DNA of 54,940 nt, taken from the IMG/VR virus record IMGVR_UViG_3300006923_000028, positions 1 through 54,940 of that record; one strand, given 5' to 3'. The notes under the pieces were generated by a model. The model did not search any database. It was not told the DNA's origin and saw only the letters and a list, made by a program, of their open reading frames with translations. The stretch comes from a virus. A program made the position numbers and the translations under genes. Shown here in pieces: positions 7,413 through 27,042 of this stretch. Within the stretch, counting starts at the first letter, position 1; each line of letters opens with the position of its first letter.

Positions 7413-7952
7413 CTATCCCATGATTGCAGAAGTGAGGCTGTATGCCTTCTGGTCAAGGTACTTTTTGTTGTCAGTGACAGTGGTATCCTCATCATTTTCT
7501 GGTTTAAGGTTTCTTACTGATTGAAGATAGACACGAGCTGTGTTTCTAATGTTAGGCATCATGAACTTAACAGTACAGGGGGCTCCTGCAAGGCCATCAC
7601 TGCCGTAGACAAGACCGACAAGAGCCGGGTTCTCCTCTAGAACAATGGGCAGGTCTTTGATTAGGGCGTCATAATCCTGATCAGCATCTTCAATGATAAC
7701 AGTTACTCTGACAATGTTATCGTTCCATTCTCGGCTCTTAGATTTCTTTCGCCCCTTGCGAGTTCGACCCTTTGCGTAGGAGTCATCTTCTTCTTCAGGA
7801 AGCTCATCTCCTGGATGATAGACCTTATCAATGAAACCTTTAACCTCAGTAACAGACCCACGAGCAACGGCAGCACGGCCACGACGTACAGCTCTATCTT
7901 GTGCCTGTTCTCTCATGTTTCTGGCTATACGTGAGCCTGGGTCAAATGACAT
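7413..7952 (-). CDS. baseplate protein, possible OB-fold/spike-associated, 179 residues
   Basis: The ATG overlaps the hub gene's stop in TAATG. The N-terminal 80 residues are strongly basic and acidic in blocks (RKGRKKSKSREW at about 66-77; GDELPEEEDD just before). The C-terminal half is beta-like (IVRVTVIIEDADQDY; APCTVKFMMPNI), which could be an OB-type barrel as in gpV/gp5-like spike proteins. Its place directly after the hub supports a hub-spike role. The family is not certain. Confidence 0.5.
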   Translation of the reverse strand: MSFDPGSRIARNMREQAQDRAVRRGRAAVARGSVTEVKGFIDKVYHPGDELPEEEDDSYAKGRTRKGRKKSKSREWNDNIVRVTVIIEDADQDYDALIKDLPIVLEENPALVGLVYGSDGLAGAPCTVKFMMPNIRNTARVYLQSVRNLKPENDEDTTVTDNKKYLDQKAYSLTSAIMG

Positions 7953-10900
7953 TATTCAGAAGTCTCCTTATCAAATCTCCACTTATCGTCGAGCGTCATA
8001 TCGCCCTTATAAGCAGTAGCAACATTGTAGCCATGTAGCTGTGCAGCTAGAATCTGGGATAGGCGTCCCTCGCGAGCGTTCTTAATAGCTGACTTAGCAT
8101 TCCCTGCAAAGTTATCCCAGCCAGTCTCAAACAAATCTTCTGGAATTCCTGCAATCCAAGGCTCTCCATTCCTCATAAGAGGAACAACATTAACAGCGAT
8201 CTGCTGTTTAGCCCAGAACCAAAAGTTGTACATGTTAAGGAAAGTGTCAGCAACCTTAGGCTCAAACACGGAGGCAGCTGCCTCAATCACTACTTTAGCC
8301 CTTTCAGGCCTGTTCTCAATCTCGTTAGCAATACTGCCGGTAGTTACTCTTGGGACACCTCCAATAAAGTTAACGATGTTCTGCTGGAAGAAAGAGCCTG
8401 TGCTCCAGAGCCCGCTCCCCAACTTAGCCCGATTTAGACGATTAAGAATAACACCAGCAGATAGCCCGCTCAATACTGGGAAGCTGGCTACCTCATTGGA
8501 AATAACGACAGCGTCTGGGGTAATGACAGAAATGAAACCATTCTCTGGAGTGAAAATATGGGTAACTTCCTCGACTTCAATTGGTCCAGCGATACCGTTA
8601 TAGTCATCAGCTAACATAATAATATCATAAGGCTTGATTCGAGCATTACCAATAAGGGTGATAGAACCCTTATACATGTCTCGTAGCCCTTTCATAATAG
8701 ACGCAACACCGTAACGAGTGGCAAGCTGTTTACCATTACAGTTGAAGAAGTCGATATTCTCAGCAAGAACATCTTCATCAGGCATAGAGCTGTGAGCCTT
8801 CATCTCAAGAGTGTTCCACCAGTTAGCTCCAGAGTTCTTCTTACCCATTCTTGTTCTTGCGCGAGTGCTTTCATCAAAGTCAAATAGTTTCTCTGTGCTA
8901 GCGTCCCAACTCTTAGTATAGGTAACTGAAACAGCATTCCAAACACCATAACTTGAAACTGCAATGTTGTTTCCAACAAGATTAATGGAAGAGCTAGCAA
9001 GATGATACCCACGGAAGGGCTTAAATCGAGCATTCAGTCCTTCAATATATTCAGCAATTAACAAGTGGAAAGCTTCCTTATTTTCATAGCTTCGGTTGGT
9101 TATCTCGGCAAGGTCTTCATCAAGCCTCCTAAGAATACCTTTTCGAAGCGTGGTCATCCTTTCCTTATAGCTTGTGGGAACAGGACGAGCCCAGTATCTC
9201 TGACTTGGGACTCCAAAGAACATTGTCATACGCCGACCGTAGGGAACAGGAGATGCAATCCACCCAGGATGCCTTAGGGTCATCTCTTGGAAGACATCCC
9301 AAACAGTTGTGTTCATTAAGAAGTACATGATATCATTGGGGTGCATCTTCCCAGTCACGTCGAAGACCCCCCAGTCAACAATATCTTCTACCGATGGAGC
9401 AAAGACATTATCGTCTACAGGGTTGTTGAGCCTATGTCGCATTTTATACTTAAACTCTGCATCAGAAGTATAGAGGGCATCAGCTGCTTCGATTGCACCA
9501 AGGGCTAGAACTGCTCCGACTGAAATCGGAGCGGCCAGCGGCATCACCACGGCTCCAACAGCACCAGTAGCGATAGCTCCAGCGATTCTCCATAGACTCC
9601 AGTGAGGCTTAGAGTGAATCGTTGTGCGTGACTTACGTGGGCCAAAAATTTCTGGACGAGGAGGCCTGGTTCCGTGCTCTAGTTCGAAGTCAGCTTGCTG
9701 AGCCTCTCCTGGCTGGAATGTAGACCCATAGGTGAACCTGCCAAAGTGCAAAACCTCAGGCGACTTGAGCATTGTGTCAAGGAGCTCGGCAGTGTCTACA
9801 TAACCGTAAGCTCTCGAGAGAGTCCTATTATTCATAACCTCATCCCCCTTCATCTTCTTACCAGAGACGCCCTTTTCTACAGCGACAAGCTCAGCTGCAT
9901 AGGACTGGGCCATGATGGAAACATGATCGTTGTTGTCACCCCAGCTGACTTGAAGGACACGACCATTGAAAAGGTTCTCCATGTACTGAGGGTTGTTAGC
10001 AAACCCAAGACGGAGGCGAATGTCCATGCCCTCTCTGAGAACTATAGACTCAAATCGCTGCTTAGAATTATCTGCTTGGCGTCTTTCATCAGCTTCATTA
10101 GCCCTACCTGTAGTTGCCCCATTCTTAGTTTCCCTACCGATGTAGTCAATGTCTCGCAGTCCGGCAGGCATTGTTCCGTCAAGAACACCACCAACATTCT
10201 GAAGCTCAATAATAACCAGGTCTGCTGGGATCTTACGGCTGCGTGTACAGGTGATCTTTTTAACAGCGGAGTAGCCGTAGAAATCGCTAAGGGATCTCCA
10301 CCCTTCGGTCCCGTTGTCATCAACGAATTCAATCTTAAAGGTTGGAAAGGCTCTCCTCATCAAGAAGATTCCTTCACTGAGCATCCCGTTAGCAGACTCA
10401 AGACATAGCTGCTGGATAGCCTCATCCCCATAGATGTGGTCTGTGTTTTTGTTCCCACTAAATACACCAGCCTCCTTAGAGGCCATGCGCCCAGTAGCCC
10501 CATCAACAAAGTCATTCTCTGCTTCCATGAAGTCTTTAAGGTCCTCGGATGGCTCATAAACCTTAATAGAAGATCGCGTGTTGCCTTCACCGCCATCTCC
10601 ACTACCGTCTGGGACTGCAAGCTTATCTGCTATTTCTGTATCCTCTAGTTCTTCTTTGAGCTTCTTGCCACTTGAGAAATCCTTCAAACTCCCCCAAGCA
10701 TTGCTAGCACAAGTACGGAGCTGGGCTTCCCATGGAACCCCACTAAGGTCATCCACTCCACCATCTTCGCTTGGATTATAGAAGTAAAAGTCAGGGTAAG
10801 TCATGACACGACTATGCATGATTGGGTGAGTGGGAAGAATAAGATCAGGATATGCATCTGGCATGTGAGCATATGCGCTCTTCCTTGCAAGGGCAATAGT

Positions 10901-13900
10901 CTCGGGGAAATGCTGGTCATCTCTGTCTACAAGATCTGCAATGATTTGCTGGATCATGTTTGCCCAGCCCCTCTTGTAAATCTCATAAATAGACCTCTCC
11001 AGTTCAGGAGAAGTGTGGGTTCCGAAAAGAAGACGGTCATCCTCGGGAGTGTAACGAACTATAGTCTTAGTTCTGTTCCGAGATACTGGGAGAATCTCCG
11101 TTGTTCCTCTGGCTCGAATTGCGGCAAGCTCCGCTCTTACACTTTCTGTGTGTTCAGAGCCAGTAGCGACTCTAGCCTCATAGGCTCCAATAGGCCCTTG
11201 AATACCTCGCACAGCATATTTGTTAAAGGTAAGATTCGCATACTCTTCCCAAAGAGCATCAAGCTGATCATTGTGCCAACCCTTGGTGGATTCTTGCTGA
11301 GCAAAGGATGATCTATTAGTAAGGGAATCCACCCAGGCGGTATGCTCCGGATAGGTTAATGAAAGGGTTGCCCCGCTTCCAGAAACATACTGTCTTCTAT
11401 TCCCAAACATTGGGAGGATCACTTCTTCAAAGCCCCACAAATCAAATTCTGCTTTAATCTCAGCTTCAGTAAACCCTCCATACCACTTATCACTGAAGAC
11501 ATGACAACCTAGAAGGAGACGCAAAATCACCTGATTGACCATGTTTTCCGCATAGCTACTTTCTCCAGTTGGGTATTTGTTAGTGTAGTCTGCGTACCAT
11601 TCTCCAGAGTTGTTCAGTTCAGGCCTATTGACAGCTACACCGTCTCGATGAACCTCTGTGCCAGGTCTTCTGTTGAGGGTGCTTGCGACGGTAAAGAACT
11701 TCCTCACCTCTTTGAAGAACTGACGGAAGACCTCGTCCTTGTCATAGGTTACGCTTTCGAGCACAACGTTGTGGAACTCAGCACTTGCGTCAAATTCCAT
11801 TTGAATCTGATACAAGCCAGGAGAGCCTGGGATAGAGCTAGTACCCATGCTGCTGATAACCCAATTAGATGATCCGGCAAGATTGCTTCCAATGAAGTCA
11901 ATGTTTGCGCACCATGCCATGGGAATGTTTCTAAACTTCCGAGCATTGTATTCAAGAGTAGCCCTCATGCTCCAAAGCTGACGAGCTTCTGGGGAGAGAC
12001 TATCTAGCCTCCTATCTCCGTCATAGGTTCCCTTCTTAGCCTCACGTCCTAGACGGTCTACGCCTTCTTGCTCGAAGGTGCTATTAAGGTCAAGAGCCTG
12101 GAAGAAGATCCGCGCCTCCTGTCCTCCCATGTACTGAGCGGTAGGAAGCTCATGTCCAACAAGAGGAATACTAGCAAACCTGTTAAGGAGCTCAACTCCC
12201 CACACGGTAATGACTGTTCCATCCTTAGGCCTGTTTCCACTGGAAACAATAATACGCCTGGGACGATAGAGAGTAAGGGGAACATGAGGACTGTTATAGA
12301 GATGCCACCCTTCTTCCTGCAAGCTTATAGCTTCGAGCTTTGCTGCGTCTCGCTCCTCTTGAGTTGGCTCTTCATACTTGAATTCCTTAGATGGACTAAC
12401 ATCTTCTACTTCAATAGCATCAGCCCGAGCAACTACACCTCCAGCTGCATCCACAATGCCTGGGTTTACATTCTCGATATTCATTAGGCGAGGCTCGCCA
12501 CCCATGTCAGGATTTGGAGAACCATTCTCCCATAGCTCAACGTGAGCGTGAACACCGTGAACTCCACTCGTGCCACTTCCTCTGTCTGCGTTAGACGTTC
12601 CGGCATTGCCAACCTGCTGTCCAACCGTAACAAAGGCTCCGTTTCTTGGAAGGCTGGCATTCTCCATGTGTCCTATGCGAACCCAAAGACCGTCATGATC
12701 GCCGGTTCCTTGGATTACAATATACCCACCAAAAGAACCAGAGGGATTTCCTCCTCCTGTTGTATATCGGATGACACCATTGATTGGACTATGAATAGAT
12801 GTGGTTGTTCTGCTGTCAGTTCCACCCCAGGCAATGTCTGTCCCCTTATGGCTTCTGCTTCCGCCAGAAGGGGTCGAGCCTCTTGGCCCAACTCCATCAC
12901 CCACACTACCGACATTGTTAGTAACGACCATAGCCGTACCAACACCTTCGTAGACCTTTTCATTTCCATTAATAGTTCCAGTGCCAAAGACACTAGAGTC
13001 GAGCCCAGGGATACGATCGGCTCCACTGTAGGTGTCGGCGCTGTGACGAATCTTTGCGAAGGACTTATGTAGGAGTTTACCTAGAGCAGTGTTCGGAGAG
13101 AGAGCCGTATATTCTCTATAGTCGAAGATAACATTTTGACCAGGACTGAATTGCCCGTAGCTAAACGGAATTGGATTAAACTGACTGGTATGGCCGCCGG
13201 TCACCCCTCCAACACGAGTGAGGCTATTGTCAGTTCGATATCTGTTTCTTTCGAGTCGGGAAGTCTTTGCACTATTTCTAACGGCATCAATCATTCCAAA
13301 ACCATCAAAGTCTCGCTCCATGGCAATGGCTTGGAGATGATTCAGATAAAGAATGTAAATGTTTGATTCATTAGCAGAGACAGGATTCGTTGGAAGGTTG
13401 GGAACAATAGGAGGAGTAACGTCTGTGAACTCCATAAACTTAGCCTTTTGGATAAGGTCTGTTGGTTCATCAGACTGAGCTGTAGGGAAACTTGATCCTG
13501 CTGGAGGGCGAATATCGCTGCCTCCCCCGTCTTCAATCTCTAAGATGGTTACTTCTTTTCCGCTCTTCCTTTTAAAGCGCCAGTTTTGTTTGTAGCTAAA
13601 GAGTGGGCTAAAGGGGGAGTAGTTGAACCATGACAACATAAGCTGAACGGACAATGCATCAGGGTTCTCTTCGATAGAAGTGATGGTCATGGCTTCAGCA
13701 CATACAGCCATAGGAACAGCATCAGTCGCATTGGCAAGCATGACGGACCGAATGTAGTTATTTTCTATTTCCCAAAATGGGGTGTACTTGAACTGCTGGA
13801 TTAACCTATGAAGCTTCCAGACCTCTCCTGGGAGGACAATCATGGTTAGGTTGATTGCAGCTATACCTCGGCCCGTTTTCGTCTTGGACGAAGTTCGAGA

Positions 13901-14032
13901 TCTTAGATAAGACGATTCATTAATAGCCCCACGATGAGATATAGAAATATCTGTAGGTGGAACGATAAACCCAAGGTCATTAAATCTAAAGTATCCTTCT
14001 TGGACCTGTTGATATGAATTAAATGCTGTCAT
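7952..14032 (-). CDS. giant baseplate hub protein with embedded M23 peptidase domain
   Basis: This 2026-residue protein appears to join several modules. Residues about 1-150 resemble a tail-tube-like hub domain (GRGIAAINLTMIVLP ... ALSVQLMLSWFNY). Residues about 385-505 are an M23/LytM-type peptidase: HKGTD with H395 and D399, and HAH with H495 and H497, the zinc ligand and catalytic pattern. Residues about 575-775 look like a second tube-like domain (ARIFFQALDLN ... YQIQMEFDASA). Residues about 1230-1400 resemble gp27 / late control D-type hub folds (GMDIRLRLGF ... NGRVLQVSWGDNNDH). A Gly/Ala-rich hydrophobic stretch follows at about 1483-1520. In contractile phages the hub closes the tube and its peptidase opens the cell wall during infection. 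It lies 3 bases after the 1768-residue gene. Confidence 0.8.
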   Translation of the reverse strand: MTAFNSYQQVQEGYFRFNDLGFIVPPTDISISHRGAINESSYLRSRTSSKTKTGRGIAAINLTMIVLPGEVWKLHRLIQQFKYTPFWEIENNYIRSVMLANATDAVPMAVCAEAMTITSIEENPDALSVQLMLSWFNYSPFSPLFSYKQNWRFKRKSGKEVTILEIEDGGGSDIRPPAGSSFPTAQSDEPTDLIQKAKFMEFTDVTPPIVPNLPTNPVSANESNIYILYLNHLQAIAMERDFDGFGMIDAVRNSAKTSRLERNRYRTDNSLTRVGGVTGGHTSQFNPIPFSYGQFSPGQNVIFDYREYTALSPNTALGKLLHKSFAKIRHSADTYSGADRIPGLDSSVFGTGTINGNEKVYEGVGTAMVVTNNVGSVGDGVGPRGSTPSGGSRSHKGTDIAWGGTDSRTTTSIHSPINGVIRYTTGGGNPSGSFGGYIVIQGTGDHDGLWVRIGHMENASLPRNGAFVTVGQQVGNAGTSNADRGSGTSGVHGVHAHVELWENGSPNPDMGGEPRLMNIENVNPGIVDAAGGVVARADAIEVEDVSPSKEFKYEEPTQEERDAAKLEAISLQEEGWHLYNSPHVPLTLYRPRRIIVSSGNRPKDGTVITVWGVELLNRFASIPLVGHELPTAQYMGGQEARIFFQALDLNSTFEQEGVDRLGREAKKGTYDGDRRLDSLSPEARQLWSMRATLEYNARKFRNIPMAWCANIDFIGSNLAGSSNWVISSMGTSSIPGSPGLYQIQMEFDASAEFHNVVLESVTYDKDEVFRQFFKEVRKFFTVASTLNRRPGTEVHRDGVAVNRPELNNSGEWYADYTNKYPTGESSYAENMVNQVILRLLLGCHVFSDKWYGGFTEAEIKAEFDLWGFEEVILPMFGNRRQYVSGSGATLSLTYPEHTAWVDSLTNRSSFAQQESTKGWHNDQLDALWEEYANLTFNKYAVRGIQGPIGAYEARVATGSEHTESVRAELAAIRARGTTEILPVSRNRTKTIVRYTPEDDRLLFGTHTSPELERSIYEIYKRGWANMIQQIIADLVDRDDQHFPETIALARKSAYAHMPDAYPDLILPTHPIMHSRVMTYPDFYFYNPSEDGGVDDLSGVPWEAQLRTCASNAWGSLKDFSSGKKLKEELEDTEIADKLAVPDGSGDGGEGNTRSSIKVYEPSEDLKDFMEAENDFVDGATGRMASKEAGVFSGNKNTDHIYGDEAIQQLCLESANGMLSEGIFLMRRAFPTFKIEFVDDNGTEGWRSLSDFYGYSAVKKITCTRSRKIPADLVIIELQNVGGVLDGTMPAGLRDIDYIGRETKNGATTGRANEADERRQADNSKQRFESIVLREGMDIRLRLGFANNPQYMENLFNGRVLQVSWGDNNDHVSIMAQSYAAELVAVEKGVSGKKMKGDEVMNNRTLSRAYGYVDTAELLDTMLKSPEVLHFGRFTYGSTFQPGEAQQADFELEHGTRPPRPEIFGPRKSRTTIHSKPHWSLWRIAGAIATGAVGAVVMPLAAPISVGAVLALGAIEAADALYTSDAEFKYKMRHRLNNPVDDNVFAPSVEDIVDWGVFDVTGKMHPNDIMYFLMNTTVWDVFQEMTLRHPGWIASPVPYGRRMTMFFGVPSQRYWARPVPTSYKERMTTLRKGILRRLDEDLAEITNRSYENKEAFHLLIAEYIEGLNARFKPFRGYHLASSSINLVGNNIAVSSYGVWNAVSVTYTKSWDASTEKLFDFDESTRARTRMGKKNSGANWWNTLEMKAHSSMPDEDVLAENIDFFNCNGKQLATRYGVASIMKGLRDMYKGSITLIGNARIKPYDIIMLADDYNGIAGPIEVEEVTHIFTPENGFISVITPDAVVISNEVASFPVLSGLSAGVILNRLNRAKLGSGLWSTGSFFQQNIVNFIGGVPRVTTGSIANEIENRPERAKVVIEAAASVFEPKVADTFLNMYNFWFWAKQQIAVNVVPLMRNGEPWIAGIPEDLFETGWDNFAGNAKSAIKNAREGRLSQILAAQLHGYNVATAYKGDMTLDDKWRFDKETSE

Positions 14033-14035
14033 AGA

Positions 14036-17000
14036 TTAATAGTGATCAATTGCTGATGGGTAGAGGGGCCGACGGTTGTCGTTAATTCGTGTTCGAATAT
14101 TTGCCCCAGGACGACGTCTGCGATATTCAGAGATGGCTCTATCCATTTCGCTTGACTGCATGTTCGCTCCCGTTCGTGCGCGACTTGTTGTCCCGGTAGA
14201 GGTGACCCTGGCGGTGGGAGAATGGGTCACGCCACTTCTTCCAGGCATTGCAGACTGAGGAGCTACTCCCTGTGGGGTGATATTGGCAGCAGGCATGTTA
14301 AGCATACTTCCATCTTGAATGTGCTGTAGCAGTCTAGGATCAAGCCCAGCCTCATCTCCTAGGGGAGCTCCACCATAGCCAGGACCACCCATTACACCCT
14401 GCATTAGGGCTGTTCCTGCAAGGCCTATAATCGCTGCAGTGCCTAGTGTTCTCTTGTGTTTTCCGAGTTCCTTAGTAGAGACGTTAATCTTTCCTAGCAT
14501 CTCTTCGACAAACCCAGCCATAGTGCTTTGGCGATTGACTGTGCTTACAGCCCGAGCCAACTGATCTTCACCAGCCATGCCATGCTCTATAGCATACCGA
14601 GCAGCCTTAAGTGTATCATCTAAAGACATATTGCGCTTGGCTCTGCTTAAGTTGAAGACCCTTCTCTTGATGCCACCTTCTTCATTCTGGTAGTTAGCCA
14701 TGACGGTCATGAGAGCTTTTCTGTCAGCTTCACCCCAGGCGAATCTCTGAGACTTTCCACCAATCTCAATATTGTAGCCTGACCTAATGTTTCCCTTGCC
14801 CATGAAGATGTCTTCCATAACCCCAATGAACCTGCCAGTGTCCATTTGAGCTTTTGTGGAACCTTGTGGTCCATAGAGAGCTTTGATTAATTCATCTCCA
14901 ACATTCATAGCTTCAGGAAGATGACGAGATTTTAGAGTAGCTGTTTCTTCAACAGCACTAAGGATAGAGTAGATTTTAGATCGCTGCTGCTCTGGCATAT
15001 CCTCAAGGAGCATAGCGTATTTGACTTCCTCAAGGGTCCTCGAGACGCGCCCAACATCTTTACCGTAGAAGAGCTTTTTGGATTGCTGAATACGTAGATC
15101 ACTGACAGCTTCTTGACTGTAGCCCTTTCTTTGCCCATAGTCGATCATACTATCAAAGACATCTTTGTTAACCTTCTTCTGCCAAACCATTGCATAGTCA
15201 TATTGCCGGGCGATCTTTTCCATAGCGCCTTTTCTGCGCATCATGCGAACACCATCTGGGTCGGTCATGAGCTTAACGAAAGCCCTATCCGCGTCATAGT
15301 CCATACCCATGCCTGGAGCAAGGCCTAGCTCGTAGTCGCTCTTCACCCCATTAACGGTAACGCTAACCAGTCTTTGAGCAATCTTGATGATCTCTTGATC
15401 CTTAGAGGATCCTCCAGTGTAGACAGCAATTCGAGCAGGCTGAATAGATCCCTGATAAGCAGCAGGCATTCGGCCAACGATACCCGACCAAGAAGCCTCC
15501 CCTCTAAGAAAGGCTCCCTTCTCAAGCTTGCTAGGCAGGGTTCCGGCATCTTCCATTTCGCCAACAAGTCGCTTTGCCAGTTTCTGACTAATGAAGGCCG
15601 TGTTGCCATCGGCTAAGTCCATCCCAACCCGAGTATTAATTCCTTCCCTAGCGCCAATCATGCTATCTTCAAGGATGTCACTAATAGCTGGCAAGCCAGC
15701 AACCTGAGCATAGGAAGAGCCTGCCCCAAGCTTATTCTTAGTGAGGCTCCTCTTCGCGGACTGGTAAAGGCCAACAACCCCTGCCATTCCGCTTTGCTCA
15801 TGTCCACTCATGATCCGAGCTAGGCGGGTGTCCATGTCAAGATCCTCATATCCATCAGGAGCCAACAGCTGGAACATCTTTTTAACCTGATTACGGTAAG
15901 CCTTTTCCTGCAGCTCACCACCCTGTGCACGAGCATAGCCAGCTGTGCGGATCTCTGCCCCTAGCTCAGCGCTCACAGACTGCATACCAGGGACGTGCCA
16001 AGAGGTAGACATACCTCTAGCCTTAAGGGCTCCATGCATTTCCTTTGGCATTTCTACTACAGCACCCCTGCCACGGAACCAATCTTCCTGAGTAATGTCT
16101 GCAAGACTCTGGGAGGCAAACTTCACTCTAGGTAAGCTTTCATCTATCTGGGTAGCGTCACCGGTCATGCTCCAAAGCATCTTGCCAATAGCATTGAAGT
16201 CATCAATAGTCGCAGCAGAGGAGGTGCTTCCATAGATGTCCCTAACAAGTGCTTCTGTTAGGTTCTCCCCACCAGACATGATCTGCTTGCTAAGGAGCAT
16301 GTCAAAGTTACGAGCCTCAACACTTCCCATACGGCCCTGAGCCAGATGGGGAAAGTCACCTATAAACTGCGATGAGCCTCCAATAGCCATTTTAAGTCTA
16401 GCAAGGCCGGCTACGTGACCGGAGTCTTTAAAGACACCAGTAAGCATTGACTCATAAGCAGCAACGGCTTCTGGACTACCTTGCTTTCCGCCATAGAAAA
16501 TGCTACCGCCACCAAAGACAAGTCCAATTGACTCGCTTCGACCTAGCCCCAGAAACTTCGCTTTCTCAGCGACAGCACGTAGGATATCGGGAACTTCCTG
16601 TCCCGCAGCGTTGAGTGTCTTTCGTGTAGTATCATAAAGCTTACCTTGATCTTGAGCTAGGAACTGCTTAAGCCTAAGCATCTGTGGAGTCTCCCCCAAG
16701 GTTGCATTCAGCTTATCAAGACTGCCTCTGGCAGCAGCGAGGTCTGCCCTCCATGAGGCTGGTGAGCCATAATCGATAAGTCGCTTCTCTAGACCACGCT
16801 TTTTATCTACAGCAGCAAGTGTTTTTTGAACATCGAAACTTTCAATTGGTGCCGAACTTAGCTTTCCTAACATAGCCCTTGCTTTCTTATAGTCCTTTCT
16901 AAGCTTATTCAATTCTGGATGCTTTAGACCGATCTTCTTCTCAAGATTAAGGATTTTACCCTTTAGCTTAAGCAGGTCCTCGGCAGCCTTAGAGTTATCA

Positions 17001-19342
17001 AGATACCTCTTCTGCTGAAGCCCTTCAAGCTCTTGTCCTGCAACAATCCTAAGTCCACTAACTGCCTGCTCGTGTACAGCGAAGAGGTCCTTCGTGAGAG
17101 GAGAGGTGTTGGTGATTTGGTCAATATGCTGAGCAAGCTTACTCATTTCCTTTACAGACATTCCCATGTGCTTTGCTAACTGAGCTAGATTCTTATCCAT
17201 TATCTCTTCGGAACGAATCTTCAAAGTTGTTTTTGTTCCATGGAAAACCTTCATATGCTCAACAGCATCGATATCCTGCTTCACATGGAGACGTAAATAT
17301 CCTTCATGGGAAAGCGTTGCCCCAACAAGAGTCTCTGACACATAACTTTCACCCGCAGCTCTAATGACCTGCCCAGACTTAGTTCCTGAACCAAGGCCTA
17401 AAGCCTGACCTCGGCCTAGACTAATTCCACCTTTGGTTTCTGCAATACGTGCTCGAATAGCTTGAGCCATTTCTTCTGGGCTAAGGTTCCCAGCCGATAG
17501 CTTCTTAAGGGTTGCTTCTCCAAGAGGCAGACTAACAGGGGAGCCAGGCGCAGCAATAATATTGTAGCTCTTTGTCTTTTGAGCTCTTAAAGCTTTAGAG
17601 AAACCTTCACGAATAAAAGACTCACCATCCATCATCCCCCATCGACGCAAGATGCCTGGGATTTTGCCTGGCTGACCATCTGCCCTAATCCCATCACCCA
17701 GGACATGCAAGGTAATAGCAGAAGGAGTCACATAACCGAACCCCTTCATGAATAGGTCCTTATACGTTGCTCCAGCATTCACTGGAACAAATCTCTTGAG
17801 AGCGCTGACAGTCTTGACTGAACGACGACCTGTCCCCTTATCAAAGGCTCCCTCAATTTGAAAGCTTGGCCCCATGCCAACACTTTGGAGATGCTTAGAG
17901 TCCATAAGGTCAAGGACAAACTTCCCATCGTGTCCCTTCTTTCCCCACTCCTTGCGAGCTGTCTCTGTAGGAGTCCAGTTTAAATCTCTGACAAGCTGGA
18001 ACAGCCTTCGACTTCGGTCAAAGCTGTGCTGGTCTTTAAACAAGTTCAATAGATTGTGAGAAGGACCACCGGGGGCTATTCTGAAGTGAGCCATATCGAC
18101 AAACCCACCCCTGGTCAAAGTACCAGGACCAATAGCTTCTACGCTTGGGTTCTTCCTCATAAAAGCTTCCATCATGTCTGCAGTGTAGTGATCGTCTCCT
18201 AGAGCGGCTGGATCAAAGACGGTATTCCGAGCAAAGGCAGCGCGTAGCCTTTCCCCTGGAGTGGAGTGACTAGTTTCAAACTGACCAATCTTTCTCAGAT
18301 CTGAATAGAAGCCTCTATAGGACATCGCTCTGTCTGCTCCAGACATACCTCCCATCTTCACAATCTGTGCGGCTAACTTATCATTTACAGACTGATTCGA
18401 CCCAAGAACATGACCCACAGAGAAGATCGACATACCCTTAGGAGAAACAACTCGCTCTCCTGTTGGGGTTCTTTTCCCTTTGGGGCCTAGACTCTCATTC
18501 CCAAAGATAAACCTAAACTCTCGCTTGCTTCCTTTATACTTCACATTGAGTTCGCGGAAGGTAGAGCCATCTCTTCCTGTTAGCTTATGCATCGTCATGT
18601 GAGCATTAACCTTAGCTAGTCCAGCACTTCTTCTCCATCCCTTAAAGCTTGCAACCTCTTCTCTTTCAAAGAAGTCAGGAACCTTCATCTCGCTACCAGC
18701 ACCAAGGAAGCCCATGTTGCTATAGAAGCTACTAAGCCCATGCTTCTCCCAAAACATTCCAGTGCCAATAATCTGTCCACCCTTAGCTACACCTCCCCTG
18801 CGGGGACCGTGTTGTCCTTTAATGTCGATATACTTACTGGGATCAAGCATCTGCCACTTCTTCCAGAGAATGCTTGCATCACTACTGGACATTCCGGAAA
18901 CAATTCCCTGCATTCGAGAAGCATAGGCAGTACGGTCTCCACTTGATCCTAGGGCTTGCTTGGACATTGACTGTGCTTCAAAGAGCGCCTGAAGCATGTT
19001 CTGTTTGTTAAGGCTTACTGCTGGGTCTGCAATAGCTGCTGCATAGGCAAAGGCTAGTCTCTTGGCTGAGTTGGGACCGAAGCTTCCACCCAGAGATTGC
19101 TTGAGCATTTTACGAGCATCCAGCACATTACCTGCAGCGTTCCTAGCAGCCAGACGCATACCCTTAATAGACCTAGCCGCCCTACCTGCTGCATCTGCTG
19201 CGGTAGTTCCCTGAGAAGCCTGGTTGGATTGAATGTCCCTATACACAGATAGTCCACCCAGACCCACAGCGCCCAACAATGGAGTGTAGGTGAAGACGGT
19301 GGCAAATGGGTTTCGACCCTTTCTGTTTTTATTGTCAGACAT
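14036..19342 (-). CDS. candidate single-chain virion RNA polymerase (two double-psi beta-barrel signatures)
   Basis: The 1768-residue product has a hydrophobic N-terminus (TYTPLLGAVGLGGLSVY), then matches by eye to RNA polymerase beta: MMDGESFIREGF at 570-581 (compare NYEDAILISE), then RLHVKQDIDAVEHM and HGTKTTLKI with K698, H701 and K704 (compare the catalytic-lysine segment KMAGRHGNKG). A coiled-coil-like helical region lies at about 750-950. Later come matches to beta-prime: GRMPAAYQGSIQPARI from G1290 (compare NRAPTLHRLGI) and LAPGMGMDYDADRAFV with Asp 1348, 1350 and 1352 spaced as in the Mg-binding DFDGD motif. Order and spacing fit a fused beta/beta-prime core, with about 20 extra residues inside the second barrel. 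The C-terminus is basic (YRRRRPGANIRTR). Single-chain polymerases are known from SP-beta YonO and crAss-like phages, where the enzyme is packaged. The position between the tape-measure-like and hub genes suggests packaging and ejection. The assignment rests on motifs, not on a search. Confidence 0.7.
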   Translation of the reverse strand: MSDNKNRKGRNPFATVFTYTPLLGAVGLGGLSVYRDIQSNQASQGTTAADAAGRAARSIKGMRLAARNAAGNVLDARKMLKQSLGGSFGPNSAKRLAFAYAAAIADPAVSLNKQNMLQALFEAQSMSKQALGSSGDRTAYASRMQGIVSGMSSSDASILWKKWQMLDPSKYIDIKGQHGPRRGGVAKGGQIIGTGMFWEKHGLSSFYSNMGFLGAGSEMKVPDFFEREEVASFKGWRRSAGLAKVNAHMTMHKLTGRDGSTFRELNVKYKGSKREFRFIFGNESLGPKGKRTPTGERVVSPKGMSIFSVGHVLGSNQSVNDKLAAQIVKMGGMSGADRAMSYRGFYSDLRKIGQFETSHSTPGERLRAAFARNTVFDPAALGDDHYTADMMEAFMRKNPSVEAIGPGTLTRGGFVDMAHFRIAPGGPSHNLLNLFKDQHSFDRSRRLFQLVRDLNWTPTETARKEWGKKGHDGKFVLDLMDSKHLQSVGMGPSFQIEGAFDKGTGRRSVKTVSALKRFVPVNAGATYKDLFMKGFGYVTPSAITLHVLGDGIRADGQPGKIPGILRRWGMMDGESFIREGFSKALRAQKTKSYNIIAAPGSPVSLPLGEATLKKLSAGNLSPEEMAQAIRARIAETKGGISLGRGQALGLGSGTKSGQVIRAAGESYVSETLVGATLSHEGYLRLHVKQDIDAVEHMKVFHGTKTTLKIRSEEIMDKNLAQLAKHMGMSVKEMSKLAQHIDQITNTSPLTKDLFAVHEQAVSGLRIVAGQELEGLQQKRYLDNSKAAEDLLKLKGKILNLEKKIGLKHPELNKLRKDYKKARAMLGKLSSAPIESFDVQKTLAAVDKKRGLEKRLIDYGSPASWRADLAAARGSLDKLNATLGETPQMLRLKQFLAQDQGKLYDTTRKTLNAAGQEVPDILRAVAEKAKFLGLGRSESIGLVFGGGSIFYGGKQGSPEAVAAYESMLTGVFKDSGHVAGLARLKMAIGGSSQFIGDFPHLAQGRMGSVEARNFDMLLSKQIMSGGENLTEALVRDIYGSTSSAATIDDFNAIGKMLWSMTGDATQIDESLPRVKFASQSLADITQEDWFRGRGAVVEMPKEMHGALKARGMSTSWHVPGMQSVSAELGAEIRTAGYARAQGGELQEKAYRNQVKKMFQLLAPDGYEDLDMDTRLARIMSGHEQSGMAGVVGLYQSAKRSLTKNKLGAGSSYAQVAGLPAISDILEDSMIGAREGINTRVGMDLADGNTAFISQKLAKRLVGEMEDAGTLPSKLEKGAFLRGEASWSGIVGRMPAAYQGSIQPARIAVYTGGSSKDQEIIKIAQRLVSVTVNGVKSDYELGLAPGMGMDYDADRAFVKLMTDPDGVRMMRRKGAMEKIARQYDYAMVWQKKVNKDVFDSMIDYGQRKGYSQEAVSDLRIQQSKKLFYGKDVGRVSRTLEEVKYAMLLEDMPEQQRSKIYSILSAVEETATLKSRHLPEAMNVGDELIKALYGPQGSTKAQMDTGRFIGVMEDIFMGKGNIRSGYNIEIGGKSQRFAWGEADRKALMTVMANYQNEEGGIKRRVFNLSRAKRNMSLDDTLKAARYAIEHGMAGEDQLARAVSTVNRQSTMAGFVEEMLGKINVSTKELGKHKRTLGTAAIIGLAGTALMQGVMGGPGYGGAPLGDEAGLDPRLLQHIQDGSMLNMPAANITPQGVAPQSAMPGRSGVTHSPTARVTSTGTTSRARTGANMQSSEMDRAISEYRRRRPGANIRTRINDNRRPLYPSAIDHY

Positions 19343-19344
19343 TC

Positions 19345-22300
19345 TTATAGGCCATATCTCTTACGGAACTGATCTTCCTCGCCCATGCGAGAGTCGTTTA
19401 CTTCAAGATCAAGTGTGTGGCTTGGGTTAGCTGAAGAGTAGCTAATGGTCCTCATGTTAGTAGAGCTGAAACCATTGGCCCCAAAAGCTAAGTGACCCAA
19501 GTCTCGGTCATTGGTGGGCTCAAAGTAATTTCCCTGAGCAATCACCTCATCTGTTAGATAAGGTTTTCTAGAGAGAAGACGCGACTGGCTTTCCCACATT
19601 CCATAATCATGGATGTCTTTCCCTTGTTGCTGAACAACCCTTAGTTTAACATCTTCAAGGTCAACAGCAGGGTTAAAGCCAACCCAATCTACAGCAGGCA
19701 TCGTGTCACCAAGCTCAGCCTCAGTACGCTGCAGCTTTTCGAAGTCGCCAAACGACATCCAGCTAGGGGCTTCCTTTTCATATCTCGAATATCTGGCTGT
19801 GCTGAAATCTTCTCCAGCAGTAGAGCCCCAGTCTTGAACAAGCCGACCTAGCTTTTCATCTCCTGTTCTAAGATAGTCAGCCTTAAGCCATTGTGCCTCA
19901 TAAATGCGATGGAGAGACTCGGGTACTAAATCAAGGATTTCCTTTCGTCTTCGCTCGCTAGTGGTGCTAGCAAACGCCTCGAAGAAGTCTTGTTCCTCAC
20001 GAGGCAAAGCAGCTTTCACAGCTGCAAGTCTATCAAATGGGTTGACTCCAGTTACCGTCTTACTGGCAAGCTTCTCGTAAAGAGAAGCGTTCCGTGTATC
20101 TCCAGCTTCATGGGCCTGCTCTTCAAGCATCTTCCATTTATAGTATTCAAGCTTATCGTAGTGGTCATTGAATCCACGAATCGTCTTAATGTGTCCAGGG
20201 ATGGCATCTACACCGAACCAGTCATGGAGGGTCTGGTTAATGAATGGTCTGAACCAATCACGCCACATTTCCTTAAGTCCCCAGAAAGCGAACCGAGTAC
20301 CATACACAACAGTGTCTTCATACTCTGAGATTGGGTCAAGATACTTGAACAACTTTTCGACAGGGCGGAAGCCAAGAGGGATAATCTTAGAGGGACCAGA
20401 GAAGACATCATGGATAACTTCATTGAAGCCCTTCCATGCCATGCCTGCTGCTCTGCCAACTAGCCCACGTCGCTTGGTGTTCTCGTTAAGAGCTGGAAGA
20501 TAGCTTTGCCATTCTCTCTTAGCTCTCTTCTGCTGCATGCGAGACTCTGCTGCTTGAACAAACTTAAGAGCCTCTTCTCCAAACTGTCCCTGAGCTGTAC
20601 GGAACTTGACTGCTCTCTGAACTTCTCTGAATTCCTGAGACCATGCAGCAACATCACCAAGAACGGCATACTTGTAAACTAGCGGCCAACTTTCCGGATC
20701 CTTTCCTTCTAGTTCGGGGTGCAAGGCAGCGTAACCCTTGCCAGGTAGTCGATACTCTCCACCCGCTACATTGCTATAGGGATCACCGAAGCGTAGTTCT
20801 TCGGGCATCCAGCTAGGCATGTTGTTAGGGATGGGGTTGTACTGCTGTATGGAACTAAGAGGACGGGGGAAGAATCGACGGATTGGCTCAGACAAGAATC
20901 CAAAACCACCTAGGTTCTGTTCCCAGTAACGCCTAGTCCATGAGTCAATAGCATTCGCTGACTGGAGCTGTGAGCCTTGAGTTCCTGGTACGTCTACTCC
21001 AGCAAGATGCTTACCAACCTCTCCCAAAGTGAAACCCCACAGACCGGGGCCTTCAACAAGGTTCTGATAAAAGAACTGACCCAGTCGACGTTTCCCGCTA
21101 TAGGGACTGTCTGGAGTTCCTGGCTGCAGGCCACCCAGAGAATAGGCTGGCTGAATCTCCAGGGAGTTAGAGATGTGCTTCAGCTCTAGGCTACCTGTTT
21201 CTCTGTTAACTCGAGCCCACTCTCCTACATGCATTAAGCGAGCTGGCTTAATCAGCTTGCCAATAGGATCGAGGAAGAGCTTAGCGAAAGGAACCTCTTC
21301 AAAGGCCTGCCCAGTAATTGGGTATGGCCTATCTTTATAGTTTCTTTCTTCTAGCTCATAGGTAAAGTGCTTACGATAGAACTTGCCAATAGGAGAGTGC
21401 CACGCACCACCAACAGGGTTCCAGAAATCAAAGTCTTCGTCTTCACCCCATACGGACTTCTCAATAGCTCTCGACTTAGACAACGCCAACCAGTGAGGCT
21501 TGAAGTGACTAATAGCGCCACCTTCCCAAGCAGTACCACCGCCTTCCCACCATCTACCCTTACGGACTGGCTGAAGCTTTCGTCCTTCATAGATCGCACT
21601 TAACTCTTCAGTAGTCTCAGACGTAGCAAGCTTTCCGGCAAGCACCGACCAAGCAGCAGCAGCTGTGACGAATCGCATACCCCAAGATGAGCCAAAGGGA
21701 AGACTCCACTGTTTGATGTTCTTTATTCCACCAGCACGCCAGAACTTGTCACCTAGCTCAGAGCGAGCAATGACTCTCTTAGGGTTAGCCCCAGCCCATG
21801 CAGCTTGAACCTGAAGCCCCATTCTCTTCCAGGGGTTCTCTTCTCCTACAATCCTAGTAGCCCAACTGATGTCGTGGTTGATTTGCTTGGTCATCCACTT
21901 CGGGATCTCTCCACCCTGGATGCCTTCTGTTACCGAGTGTCTCCAGGCAGAGCGTTTGGAGATTTCGTTAATAGCATAGACCGAGTCACGCATACGCTGC
22001 TGACCCTTACTAAGGACAGCTCCGCCGGACTTCTTAGACTCATTAACTAATCCACGTTCATTATAGATGTTCCAGAACTGAGTAGCATACGTTCCAGTGC
22101 TAGCATGAATTCGCTGAAGGATTGTTCCACCCTTCATACTTGGACGCATTTCCTTACGAAGCATACGGTCTAGGACATGACCAACTCCCACACCAATAAT
22201 ACCCATACCAATAGCTGTTGAGCTATCAGTGGAGCCTGGCATGTTGGTTTCAAACCATCTTCTCCAGCCACTACCAATGAACGGGACGGGGCTGAGGGCA

Positions 22301-23586
22301 TTCGTAACTGTTGATCGAAGCTTGTTTGCAATAGCTCCAACGTTTCCGAATCCAGCGAACAAGCCATCCCTGAAGGGAGGAAGCAGACTACCTACTGCAC
22401 CAATAGCAGCTCCGCGACCAATGTGAGACCACTTCTTTCCAAAGATGCTTCCAAAGTAAGCGCCAGTAATACCAAAGGCAGCTGCTCCACCGACAGTATC
22501 ATGCTGCTTTGCCCAGCTTGCAGAACTTAGGAGAAGCCCAGCCATGCCGACAGTCCCCGCCTTGCGGGCATACATGAATGAGTTCTTTAGGAAGCTTCCT
22601 TCTTTTCCATAAAGCTTAAAGGGTAGCTGTCCACCAATGTCTGACAGGATAGGGATCTGCTGCCAAATAGTACGGATAAGCTCGTTGAGCCGACCACTAC
22701 CAGCAGCCCCTACTAGGCGTCCCATATGGATAGCGGTGTCTGCTGGGCCTGCCCCTGTTACTGTGGGGATGTGTATTGGCAAGAACTCTAAGTTTCTACC
22801 AACAGCCTTAATGGCATCGTCCTCCATAGCAGAACCAACATGGTAACCAATACCAGCACGAACCTTGGAAATCTTCATCTCCTGTCCTGCAGTAGCTACT
22901 AGGCTGGGGGCTGTCTTGTGACTGTAGGCTTTGGAAGAAGCTTCACCGCTTCCATACTTCTGGCGTTCCCAATCTGCCTGAACCCTAGCCAACAGGTCTG
23001 GATTCTTAATAGCAAGATCAGCCTGGATCATTCGCTGAAGCTCTCTAGCTCTACCGCGCTGACCCAACACTAGACGGTCTTGAACGAGCTCTCCTGACTT
23101 TGCGTTATAGGCTTTGTAGAAGACACTGTCTGCGGATTCTCTCTCAAGCCTTAGCCCGTGCTGTCCTGCATCAATAAGCTTATGGGGCTCTACCCCCATT
23201 ACCGAAGCCATCACCTCGCGGATGAACTTGTTCCCTCCATCAATGTTAAAAGCTTCAGGGGGCAAGAATGGCTTGAAGAGCTTCCCAGTAGCCTCCATAA
23301 TCCGCTCATGATCAACAAACGGAGACACCATAAATGGTAGTCTGAAGGTAGCCATCATGCCACCAGGCAGGACGAATCTCTCAGCTACTTGAAGGGTTCT
23401 GTAGGCTTTCGTAAAGCCTCGCTCTCCGCCATGGCGGAGCATCCCTACCCCAAAAACACCAGCGCCCACAGCAGCGCCAGTAGCCCAACCAAAGAGCTGC
23501 CTTCCTGTGGAAGGCTGTGTTAGCTCATCTTGGCGTTGGCTACTCCACGTTGTGTGCGGGCCGGAGTTTGAGTACAGATTGGACAT
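19345..23586 (-). CDS. large hydrophobic virion protein, candidate tape measure or ejection protein
   Basis: The 1413-residue protein is encoded directly after two tail-chaperone-like genes, the standard place of a tape measure protein. Several Gly/Ala-rich hydrophobic stretches are visible: residues about 33-52 (WATGAAVGAGVFGVGML), about 340-400, about 455-475 (IGMGIIGVGVGHVL) and about 635-650. The C-terminal third is polar, helical and Trp/Tyr-rich. It lacks the long uniform coiled coil and peptide repeats of typical tape measures. It could therefore be a membrane-penetrating ejection protein acting with the adjacent polymerase-like protein. The stop of this gene is two bases from the next start. 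No enzymatic motif was found. Confidence 0.55.
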   Translation of the reverse strand: MSNLYSNSGPHTTWSSQRQDELTQPSTGRQLFGWATGAAVGAGVFGVGMLRHGGERGFTKAYRTLQVAERFVLPGGMMATFRLPFMVSPFVDHERIMEATGKLFKPFLPPEAFNIDGGNKFIREVMASVMGVEPHKLIDAGQHGLRLERESADSVFYKAYNAKSGELVQDRLVLGQRGRARELQRMIQADLAIKNPDLLARVQADWERQKYGSGEASSKAYSHKTAPSLVATAGQEMKISKVRAGIGYHVGSAMEDDAIKAVGRNLEFLPIHIPTVTGAGPADTAIHMGRLVGAAGSGRLNELIRTIWQQIPILSDIGGQLPFKLYGKEGSFLKNSFMYARKAGTVGMAGLLLSSASWAKQHDTVGGAAAFGITGAYFGSIFGKKWSHIGRGAAIGAVGSLLPPFRDGLFAGFGNVGAIANKLRSTVTNALSPVPFIGSGWRRWFETNMPGSTDSSTAIGMGIIGVGVGHVLDRMLRKEMRPSMKGGTILQRIHASTGTYATQFWNIYNERGLVNESKKSGGAVLSKGQQRMRDSVYAINEISKRSAWRHSVTEGIQGGEIPKWMTKQINHDISWATRIVGEENPWKRMGLQVQAAWAGANPKRVIARSELGDKFWRAGGIKNIKQWSLPFGSSWGMRFVTAAAAWSVLAGKLATSETTEELSAIYEGRKLQPVRKGRWWEGGGTAWEGGAISHFKPHWLALSKSRAIEKSVWGEDEDFDFWNPVGGAWHSPIGKFYRKHFTYELEERNYKDRPYPITGQAFEEVPFAKLFLDPIGKLIKPARLMHVGEWARVNRETGSLELKHISNSLEIQPAYSLGGLQPGTPDSPYSGKRRLGQFFYQNLVEGPGLWGFTLGEVGKHLAGVDVPGTQGSQLQSANAIDSWTRRYWEQNLGGFGFLSEPIRRFFPRPLSSIQQYNPIPNNMPSWMPEELRFGDPYSNVAGGEYRLPGKGYAALHPELEGKDPESWPLVYKYAVLGDVAAWSQEFREVQRAVKFRTAQGQFGEEALKFVQAAESRMQQKRAKREWQSYLPALNENTKRRGLVGRAAGMAWKGFNEVIHDVFSGPSKIIPLGFRPVEKLFKYLDPISEYEDTVVYGTRFAFWGLKEMWRDWFRPFINQTLHDWFGVDAIPGHIKTIRGFNDHYDKLEYYKWKMLEEQAHEAGDTRNASLYEKLASKTVTGVNPFDRLAAVKAALPREEQDFFEAFASTTSERRRKEILDLVPESLHRIYEAQWLKADYLRTGDEKLGRLVQDWGSTAGEDFSTARYSRYEKEAPSWMSFGDFEKLQRTEAELGDTMPAVDWVGFNPAVDLEDVKLRVVQQQGKDIHDYGMWESQSRLLSRKPYLTDEVIAQGNYFEPTNDRDLGHLAFGANGFSSTNMRTISYSSANPSHTLDLEVNDSRMGEEDQFRKRYGL

Positions 23587-24763: not shown

Positions 24764-25453
24764 TTAGGTTACTTCCCTGCAAATAAATGGGTATTGTTCT
24801 AGGACAGGCTCACCTTCTACAGTGATCGTTTGTCCAAAACCCGTAAGTTGAACTTGGCGCAATGTGCGCACTGCGGAAAGAGTAAAGCTAGGTTGGTTAT
24901 CCTGGCTTCTCAGTTGATTACCAAACGCATCACCATAGGTGACGATAATATCGAAAGGTAGGTAGTGATCGTCTGGGCGAGCAAGGCTAGTGCTACTTAA
25001 CACATCCTGCCTAGATAGCTCGGAGCCTGCGTCTCCACCCCAGAACCTTCTTTTAAGAGTGTCTCTATCTTGACCTGCATGATCGGGGTCGCTTGGGTTT
25101 ACCAAAGCCTGGGCACTCTGTCCCAGCTTCTTTTCAAACTTGTTTGTGTAGAAGTCTGATTCTACATCAAGACCATGGGTTCGTGCGATTAAAGTTGGAA
25201 GAAACTGCGCATACTGAAAGTTAACCATGAGAAATCCAGAACACTGGACCGTTCCCCAGGCAACCCCATCCCACAGTTGGGACGCATATCCCCACACTGG
25301 TCGCTTATTTTGGACTAGAGAAAACTCTATGCCCACCGCCGTTCCGATTAGGATCTCGCGAATATAGAGGCCGATATTGGAACCAGTAAAGTAATCATAG
25401 GTAAAATGAGAGGTATCATTATTATCATATCCGCTACGGTAGGTCTTTGTCAT
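24764..25453 (-). CDS. tail tube-like protein, copy 3
   Basis: The 229-residue protein is the most divergent of three tandem tube-like proteins. It keeps the two diagnostic blocks: NKRPVWGYASQLWDG followed by GTVQCSGFLMVNF, and HYLPFDIIVTYGDAFGNQ followed by LRQVQLTGFGQTI near the C-terminus. Copies 1 and 2 have the equivalent blocks GYANPRAFSRGKRGIAGTLV and QIPPFDITL. It could be a tube initiator, tube terminator or tail completion protein built on the tube fold, with copy 1 forming the bulk tube. Confidence 0.65.
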   Translation of the reverse strand: MTKTYRSGYDNNDTSHFTYDYFTGSNIGLYIREILIGTAVGIEFSLVQNKRPVWGYASQLWDGVAWGTVQCSGFLMVNFQYAQFLPTLIARTHGLDVESDFYTNKFEKKLGQSAQALVNPSDPDHAGQDRDTLKRRFWGGDAGSELSRQDVLSSTSLARPDDHYLPFDIIVTYGDAFGNQLRSQDNQPSFTLSAVRTLRQVQLTGFGQTITVEGEPVLEQYPFICREVT

Positions 25454-25455
25454 TG

Positions 25456-26328
25456 TTAGCCCCCACCCCCGCCCCGGTCGGGTCGCCTAGCTGGGAGAGC
25501 AGCTTCAGCTCGCTCCCGCCCACTAGCAAAGCCAGGGTTCTGTACAGCGATATGCTCTCTTGCTCTTTCGAAAGTATAGGAGATCTCGTTCTCAAGGGCT
25601 TGACGCTGTACGGCGCTAAGGTCACCAGACTGAAGCCTCGTAGCTCCAAGTAAAGCATTAAGCCTTTCATCGTCCGCGATGTTGGTGTGTCCACTCCTGT
25701 TAGTTGATGTCCTATATGAATGTTTAGGATCACGAGAGTTTCTGTAACCTTCAAAGATGTGCATGTCCCGGGCTACATACTGATAGGTGTTTTCAGTTAA
25801 AAGGTCATCAATAGAGGTGACCATACCATCGTTCGTTAGCGTTACTCCAAAGATTGTCAATGTCCCCCAAGTTGGAAAGGGAACCCTTCTCGAAGCGTTT
25901 TCCTCAGGAGTGATCCTGGCAGGAAGCTCCGCACTATAAACAAGATGAATATTAAACGGTGGAATTTGATCAGGGAAATTATGACCATCCCAATAACCAG
26001 TGTCATAGGAATATTCATAAATCCATGTATCTAGTAACTTTCTAAGTGGATGCTCGTCAATAACGGCAAAGATCAAAGAGCCAGCAATCGTTCTAGTACC
26101 TCTCGTATGTCCTCGGACATTACGATACCCGATAGCCCGAACTGGGCTAACATCTCTATAGATAGAAACTGAAAGGGTTTGTAGGTCTTTGATCCTTACG
26201 AGACCAGGGTGTCTAGCACCCCCGTCTCGATCATAGGCACCCTTAAAAAACATATAAGGGATGGTTGCGTAGGCTTTGACGTCTGCCCCACTGAAGCTCA
26301 GTCCAGCGATACTGGCTGATTGGCTCAT
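25456..26328 (-). CDS. tail tube-like protein, copy 2
   Basis: The 290-residue protein shares with copy 1 the blocks AIGYRNVRGHTRGTRTIAGS, LIFAVIDEHPL, FPDQIPPFNIHLVY and SIDDLLTENTYQYVARDM. The last 75 residues are an extra Arg/Asp/Gly-rich tail (ARRPDRGGGGG at the very end), unlike copy 1. It lies between copies 1 and 3, 21 bases after copy 1. The tail extension may be a special adaptor at the end of the tube or simply a decoration. The function within the tail is inferred. Confidence 0.7.
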   Translation of the reverse strand: MSQSASIAGLSFSGADVKAYATIPYMFFKGAYDRDGGARHPGLVRIKDLQTLSVSIYRDVSPVRAIGYRNVRGHTRGTRTIAGSLIFAVIDEHPLRKLLDTWIYEYSYDTGYWDGHNFPDQIPPFNIHLVYSAELPARITPEENASRRVPFPTWGTLTIFGVTLTNDGMVTSIDDLLTENTYQYVARDMHIFEGYRNSRDPKHSYRTSTNRSGHTNIADDERLNALLGATRLQSGDLSAVQRQALENEISYTFERAREHIAVQNPGFASGRERAEAALPARRPDRGGGGG

Positions 26329-26349
26329 AGGAGAGAGTTCCTTTTGCTA

Positions 26350-27042
26350 TTAGTTTGCGTTAGTAGCGCCCTGACCCTCTTCATTTGCTTCTAACTCAAT
26401 CCAAGGTACGAGTTCACGTGCGATGAAGGTGTACTGGAACTCAGAGACTAGGTCGTCAATGGAGATTCCATAACCTTCGTTTACAAGCTCAACTCCAATC
26501 ACAGCCATGCTAACTACCGCACCATATTCGTTAGAAGCGGTGAGGGTAATGTCGAATGGAGGGATCTGGTCTGGGTACCAAGGGGTAGTCAGAATCTGAT
26601 CGTTGAAGCTGTTACCGTCTGGCAAAATGTCGTTACTACCGATAGAGGTTGGATTTCCTACCTGACTAATGTCGGTGATTGGCCTGTCCCCGGTAAACAT
26701 AATGGAAGGACGAATTTCTTCTTCATCTGCCCAGAACTTATTTGCATTTTCATCTTTAGAGAAAATAGGCTGAGTCGCAGAGCTAGGGTTAACTGGCCCT
26801 ACTAGAGGATGCTTATTAAACATCGCAAAGACTAGTGTCCCAGCAATGCCTCTCTTCCCTCTAGAGAATGCTCGTGGGTTTGCATAACCCATTGTGTAGA
26901 TAGGAGCCTTCTCACGCTGAACAGCATAAGAGAAGGCCTGTAGCGGTACAGCTACTGTGCTATTAAAAACAGCCTTAATATCGATTCCAGTGAACGAGTT
27001 ATACGCGTTCGCTCGACTTTGCTGTCCTGCTGGAAGTGCCAT
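26350..27042 (-). CDS. tail tube protein, copy 1 (probable main tube subunit)
   Basis: The 230-residue product is the size of myovirus tube proteins and is encoded right after the sheath, the conserved sheath-tube order. Visible blocks are YTMGYANPRAFSRGKRGIAG, TLVFAMFNKHPL, YPDQIPPFDITLTAS and VELVNEGYGISIDDLVSEFQ. The last is the typical closing beta strand pattern followed by YTFIAREL. A hairpin at 27068-27097 separates it from the sheath gene. Tube subunits stack in hexameric rings inside the sheath and conduct DNA. Confidence 0.75.
   Translation of the reverse strand: MALPAGQQSRANAYNSFTGIDIKAVFNSTVAVPLQAFSYAVQREKAPIYTMGYANPRAFSRGKRGIAGTLVFAMFNKHPLVGPVNPSSATQPIFSKDENANKFWADEEEIRPSIMFTGDRPITDISQVGNPTSIGSNDILPDGNSFNDQILTTPWYPDQIPPFDITLTASNEYGAVVSMAVIGVELVNEGYGISIDDLVSEFQYTFIARELVPWIELEANEEGQGATNAN

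Follow-up and report, generated by a model that had tools for sequence, protein, structure and literature searches.

The gene at 14036-19342 on the minus strand of the window (the whole stretch of viral DNA analysed here, 54,940 nucleotides) is a complete open reading frame encoding a protein of 1768 amino acids, and its place among the tail genes raises the question of whether this phage carries its own RNA polymerase (RNAP) in the virion. An earlier note on the same DNA had proposed as much, reading the product as a packaged enzyme in which the β and β' barrels of cellular RNAPs are fused in one chain. We treat the protein here as a candidate virion RNAP of the single-chain, two-barrel type and ask which parts of that proposal hold.

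A gene slot beside the baseplate hub

The open reading frame upstream (19345-23586, minus strand) encodes a tape-measure-like protein (TMP) of 1413 residues with a Gly-zipper, while the one downstream (7952-14032, minus strand) encodes a hub-like protein of 2026 residues with an M23 peptidase domain, which anchors the conserved slot described below. Other genes of the window encode a portal, a TerL and a baseplate wedge, and a tail sheath (PHROG match, E=1e-66) identifies the phage as contractile-tailed; the earlier note had both neighbours and the tail type right. The window is itself an IMG/VR virus record, and the gene recurs at 100% identity in a longer IMG/VR record of 189,645 bases (G001). 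Two further features of the window were recorded: a 1241-residue protein at 48824-52549 (minus strand), upstream of the terminase gene, contains an SNase domain (Pfam E=1e-11), and three consecutive proteins at 24764-27042 (minus strand) match PHROG 9206, called 'major head protein', although their position beside the sheath suggests that they are tail-tube proteins.

As a single query the 1768-residue protein is recognised by none of Pfam, PHROGs and the PDB. Its matches in INPHARED and IMG/VR are near-identical copies, relatives sought through TerL proved to be near-identical contigs, and a search of genome contigs yielded no relatives. The DNA pattern GMDYDGD/GMDYDAD retrieved 46 stretches, some of them with RNAP-like ORFs, and among them no relative besides the query. 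Since nothing recognises the protein alone, and since a loose form of its RxP..DxDxD motif occurs in 4.4% of shuffles of its sequence, the claim was tested through relatives.

These were reached by way of the neighbouring genes. Similarity of the sheath and hub led to Acinetobacter phage ME3, Moorella phage MTATph1 and Bacillus phage KLEB27-3. The gene directly before the hub in ME3 and KLEB27-3 is unnamed or called a 'structural protein' (the depositor's annotation for KLEB27-3 gp034), and the two products contain SREPAQGTMSSQ..GGDHDQD and NRYPTINQSTIQ..KADYDGD. Nine phage-plasmids of Bacillus, Cytobacillus and Paenibacillus have the same hub, and in the six of these that were examined the pre-hub gene encodes about 2300 residues, hypothetical or unlisted, that include this block (in one case IRYPSIDTGTTQ..SGDFDGD). 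Alignment of the hub gave 44 IMG/VR loci and a closer hub alignment several more, so that the slot set, gathered through the neighbouring baseplate-hub gene, comprises 42 non-redundant proteins from IMG/VR, phages and phage-plasmids. Pairwise comparison of the 1768-residue protein with single slot proteins by blastp or phmmer reached at best E=0.006, and its relatedness to them therefore rests on profiles.

The slot is not always occupied by a polymerase. In MTATph1 the slot gene (L053:20513-27869) is without the polymerase body: an exonuclease-like half is followed by a transposase and then by a remnant that keeps the conserved C-terminal tail. This phage seems to have lost the polymerase or to be able to do without it. 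Another DFDGD site of MTATph1, at 80.8 kb, resembles a primase and was set aside as unrelated to the slot gene. Two other slot proteins (L081:3255-9920 and L105:3881-9532) have the membrane helix and tail described below and no DxDxD, and are perhaps inactive or replaced polymerases.

Active-site motifs and fold

On the β'-like side, the DxDxD triad is present with its preceding R-x-P...Q strand (1290 GRMPAAYQGSIQ ... 1348 DYDAD). Residues 1290-1307 (GRMPAAYQGSIQPARIAV; 15422-15475, minus strand) are the equivalent of NRAPTLHRLGIQAFEPVL in RpoC, and DYDAD (1348-1352; 15287-15301, minus strand) is the predicted metal-binding triad of the β' barrel. Downstream of the barrel, VGRVSR (1430-1435; 15038-15055, minus strand) and LKSRH (1470-1474; 14921-14935, minus strand) represent the family motifs IGxxSN and (I/L)KAKH / QKxIDAKHG. 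The RxP..DxDxD signature is weak in one protein and far beyond chance across the slot family, being found in 39 of the 42 non-redundant slot proteins versus 2 of 81 non-redundant other large ORFs from the same loci; under a stricter pattern the counts are 35 of 42 and 0 of 81. The slot proteins without it are L081, L105 and the partial L098. In an alignment of 35 rows (A7) five columns do not vary (R, P, D, D and D), an invariance that is partly by construction because the rows were chosen and centred on that block. Cellular enzymes have DGD at the triad. The glycine of DxDGD is replaced here (DYDAD), its position is taken by Ala, Arg, Lys, Gln or Phe in near relatives, and most other members have Gly; phage phi14:2 reads DFDID, so that this glycine is not defining for phage members.

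On the β-like side, MKVFHGTK (697-704; 17231-17254, minus strand) contributes two lysines, K698 and K704, to the predicted active site. When nine proteins are aligned these share one column with the xKFFxGxKG-type motifs of eight relatives, and in the Bacillota members the equivalent position is occupied by FKFMxxGEK. The co-alignment depends on the alignment mode, because L-INS-i misplaced the lysine motif while E-INS-i, or hand-chosen rows and segments, gave one column. Judged by sequence alignment rather than by geometry, both β-like lysines are present in the 1768-residue protein. The motifs named in the earlier note all lie where it placed them (MDGESFI at 571, HGTK at 701-704, GRMP at 1290 and DYDAD at 1348), and the shared column bears out its choice of HGTK as a β-side motif; MDGESFI (571-577; 17612-17632, minus strand), its other β motif, is not conserved in those nearest relatives and is not supported. 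Both barrel motifs thus occur in one chain in the order β then β', with K698 and D1348 separated by 650 residues; the same lysine-to-Asp spacing is 438-633 in the eight relatives measured.

Profile searches connect this block to RNAPs. The A7 profile (35 members, with the 1768-residue protein first) finds the phiKZ non-virion RNAP (nvRNAP) β' chain as its best PDB match (E=2.2e-7), with the Pol V largest subunit (3.2e-5), Pol I (4e-4) and the P23-45 tape-measure RNAP (E=0.1) further down, and the best 50 matches are all RNAP chains. All 15 PDB matches at E<=10 of a Bacillota profile (A4) are likewise RNAP, and Pfam RNA_pol_Rpb1_2 is matched by 8 of the 35 members (best 1.1e-5). An HMM built by leave-one-out from the 34 other slot proteins recovers residues 1285-1370 of the protein under study (P0001) at E=3.6e-5 among 389 sequences, the best control standing at about 1.1, and also recovers RpoC, P23-45 gp96 and a phage β'. 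Comparison by hhalign of the near group of the 1768-residue protein with the Bacillota group gives E=1.3e-5.

The predicted structure of a relative agrees with the profiles. An AlphaFold model of L091 residues 1097-2232, made from 16 sequences (pLDDT 76, pTM 0.73), has 560 Foldseek matches in the PDB at E<=0.001; the best 50 are without exception RNAP chains, largest subunits for the most part, and rank 30 is held by a second-largest subunit. Among viral models it matches a siphovirus 'minor tail protein' (1.6e-18) and an uncharacterised ME3 protein (8.3e-12), presumably the slot protein ME3_36. The model of the 1768-residue protein itself, made from nine rows, is poor (pLDDT 40, with mainly the barrel region around 1244-1336 at 60-80); Foldseek finds nothing significant for it, and RNAP β' chains are among the matches for the barrel region. 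Because of this poor model, the facing barrels of the protein are predicted from its relatives. At the level of the family, the PDB profiles, the RNA_pol_Rpb1_2 matches, the L091 model with its Foldseek matches and the leave-one-out HMM uphold the proposed single-chain two-barrel architecture: they establish the family relationship and the family's RNAP fold, and they argue strongly for assigning the slot family to the single-chain RNAPs of the two-barrel type. The 1768-residue protein is, in our judgement, probably such an RNAP, a diverged member of this conserved but unannotated family that would be assembled into the tail, anchored in a membrane and responsible for transcribing the first genes.

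Termini, exonuclease domain and competing explanations

A fold retained after catalysis has been lost, serving in this phage as a tail or baseplate scaffold or as a pilot protein, is the first alternative. The replaced glycine in DYDAD, the high divergence of the sequence and the slot proteins L081 and L105, which are without the whole triad, would be expected of such a relic, but three Asp and two Lys have been retained although nearly everything else has changed, and the glycine position is variable in phi14:2 too, which makes this explanation unlikely. The phi14:2 RNAP was reportedly found to be active by Drobysheva in 2021.

The termini bear on where the enzyme would act. The protein has an N-terminal hydrophobic segment (residues 13-31; 19250-19306, minus strand; hydropathy 1.38), a C-terminal membrane-type helix (1633-1651; 14390-14446, minus strand) and a conserved C-terminal tail (...INDNRRPLYPSAIDHY; 14039-14110, minus strand). 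Every one of the 42 slot proteins has a membrane-type helix 106-154 residues before its C-terminal end, and the tail that follows it is conserved in most of them. A genuine RNAP made during infection and left unpackaged, its position in the structural operon being a matter of chance, is quite unlikely in the face of these features: every slot protein carries the helix and tail, the slot has persisted in phages between which the proteins are nearly unrecognisable by sequence, and KLEB27-3 gp034 is annotated as structural. As to further polymerases, a search of the 189.6 kb of G001 detected no member of the RdRP and Rpb2 families and no additional D[FY]D[GA]D-type site, which does not prove absence; a search of G001 for the T7-type RNAP family gave no match, but the control was equally silent.

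Many relatives have in addition an N-terminal DEDDh 3'-5' exonuclease domain with conserved DxE, N..FD and H-x4-D (RNase_T, 2.7e-6), whose PDB matches are ExoI and the exonuclease domains of DNA polymerases. The fusion is found in the Bacillota members and some others (for example L054:23004-24203, L091, L083 and L107); the 1768-residue protein does not have the domain. Such a fusion would suit a two-barrel polymerase with another product, packaged or not, such as a DNA polymerase or primase of the PolD kind, for which the exonuclease would provide proofreading, and the two-barrel core is indeed common to PolD (PMC7281927). We consider this very unlikely, since the top structural and sequence matches listed are RNAPs with PolD not among them, the 1768-residue protein is without the exonuclease, and its place between TMP and hub parallels that of known virion RNAPs. 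Finally, the view that the motifs arose by chance in a structural protein of the tape-measure kind, which the negative single-protein searches and the shuffles might have suggested, is refuted in practice by the family profile, the fold and the leave-one-out results and can be dismissed with near certainty.

Known virion polymerases and a possible route to early transcription

Virion two-barrel RNAPs are known from crAss-like phages, from P23-45 and, in multisubunit form, from phiKZ-type phages. One close parallel is the P23-45 virion RNAP gp96, a single-chain two-barrel enzyme inside a large tail protein (PMC10770324) whose motif FRNPVMGHGGALLQ...GVDFDGD resembles that of the slot family. Unlike the slot family, which has a separate gene adjoining the hub in contractile-tailed phages, P23-45 is a siphovirus in which the RNAP forms the N-terminal part of a 5002-residue tape-measure protein, and no similarity is detectable beyond the active-site block. 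In crAss-like phages, the RNAP phi14:2 gp66 is likewise packaged, holds its two barrels in a single chain within a giant structural protein and has R-x-P..Q..DFDID, but it belongs to podovirus-like phages of Bacteroidota and its profile match to the slot family is not significant. The YonO, 0305phi8-36 orf99 and RDR-type enzymes also hold both barrels in one chain, and a YonO-like ORF has a similar downstream motif pair (IGKITN..Q..ID..KG), whereas these proteins are smaller (about 900 residues) and encoded outside the structural gene cluster. The phiKZ-type RNAPs, which supply the best PDB profile match and occur in virion and non-virion forms, consist of several subunits rather than one chain. 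Across the gp66, gp96 and YonO subfamilies no significant full-length similarity was found, the hhalign and HMM matches being weak and confined to the active-site block. We also noted that Siphoviridae sp. ctnpt50 encodes both a 'minor tail protein' of this RNAP-like fold and, as another protein, an 'RNA-dependent RNA polymerase' (UniProt A0A8S5SD80 and A0A8S5SEF1), possibly a virion and non-virion pair as in P23-45.

A gene in this slot has been described before. In 0305phi8-36, gp146, encoded directly before the hub gene, was assigned as the tape measure mainly by its length, with orf99 described as the RNAP of this phage (Hardies et al., 2007; PMC2147016). The orf99 enzyme and the hub-adjacent gene are separate genes (PMC2147016, PMC7824862), and for 0305phi8-36 a 2021 survey covering 224 jumbo phages lists the YonO-like enzyme alone (PMC7824862). 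The only resemblance that Hardies et al. detected between gp146 and its BtI1 and BwK1 counterparts lay in the last 60 residues (PMC2147016), which fits the conserved tail of the slot family, gp146 being known here from the published description. No earlier report of a hub-adjacent RNAP was found in the literature searched, a scope that left out most subscription papers and bioRxiv.

Virion packaging and early transcription by the candidate RNAP are suggested by its slot between TMP and hub, its C-terminal membrane-type helix, the 'structural protein' of KLEB27-3 and the analogy with P23-45, crAss-like phages and N4. In the mechanism we propose, the barrels of the one polypeptide would place K698/K704 on the β-like side and Asp1348, Asp1350 and Asp1352 on the β'-like side, and the enzyme would be incorporated near the hub, in the region of the tail or baseplate. 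It would then enter the cell envelope along with the phage DNA, where the hydrophobic C-terminal helix may anchor it in the membrane, and would transcribe the first genes of the incoming genome until this task passes to the host polymerase or to phage products. A similar mechanism of entry and transcription has been proposed for P23-45 (PMC10770324). A broader reading, to which we give even chances, is that the slot proteins constitute a separate lineage of virion-carried single-chain RNAPs that is a core component, adjacent to the hub, of the large 0305phi8-36-type contractile phages and phage-plasmids, many of them with the DEDDh domain, with the helix at the entry pore and with gp146 included; the membrane-held enzyme at the pore may then also help to pull the genome in.

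The slot family adds to the known RNAPs a deeply diverged and widespread family from contractile-tailed phages of several bacterial groups, with a fixed place beside the hub, occurring directly upstream of it in contractile phages of the 0305phi8-36 type and in phage-plasmids. For dozens of 'hypothetical' proteins of 1400-3300 residues it offers a likely function, it reveals an exonuclease-RNAP fusion in the relatives, and it raises the possibility that the tape measure of 0305phi8-36 was wrongly assigned. It also suggests a route by which these phages could start transcription independently of the host.
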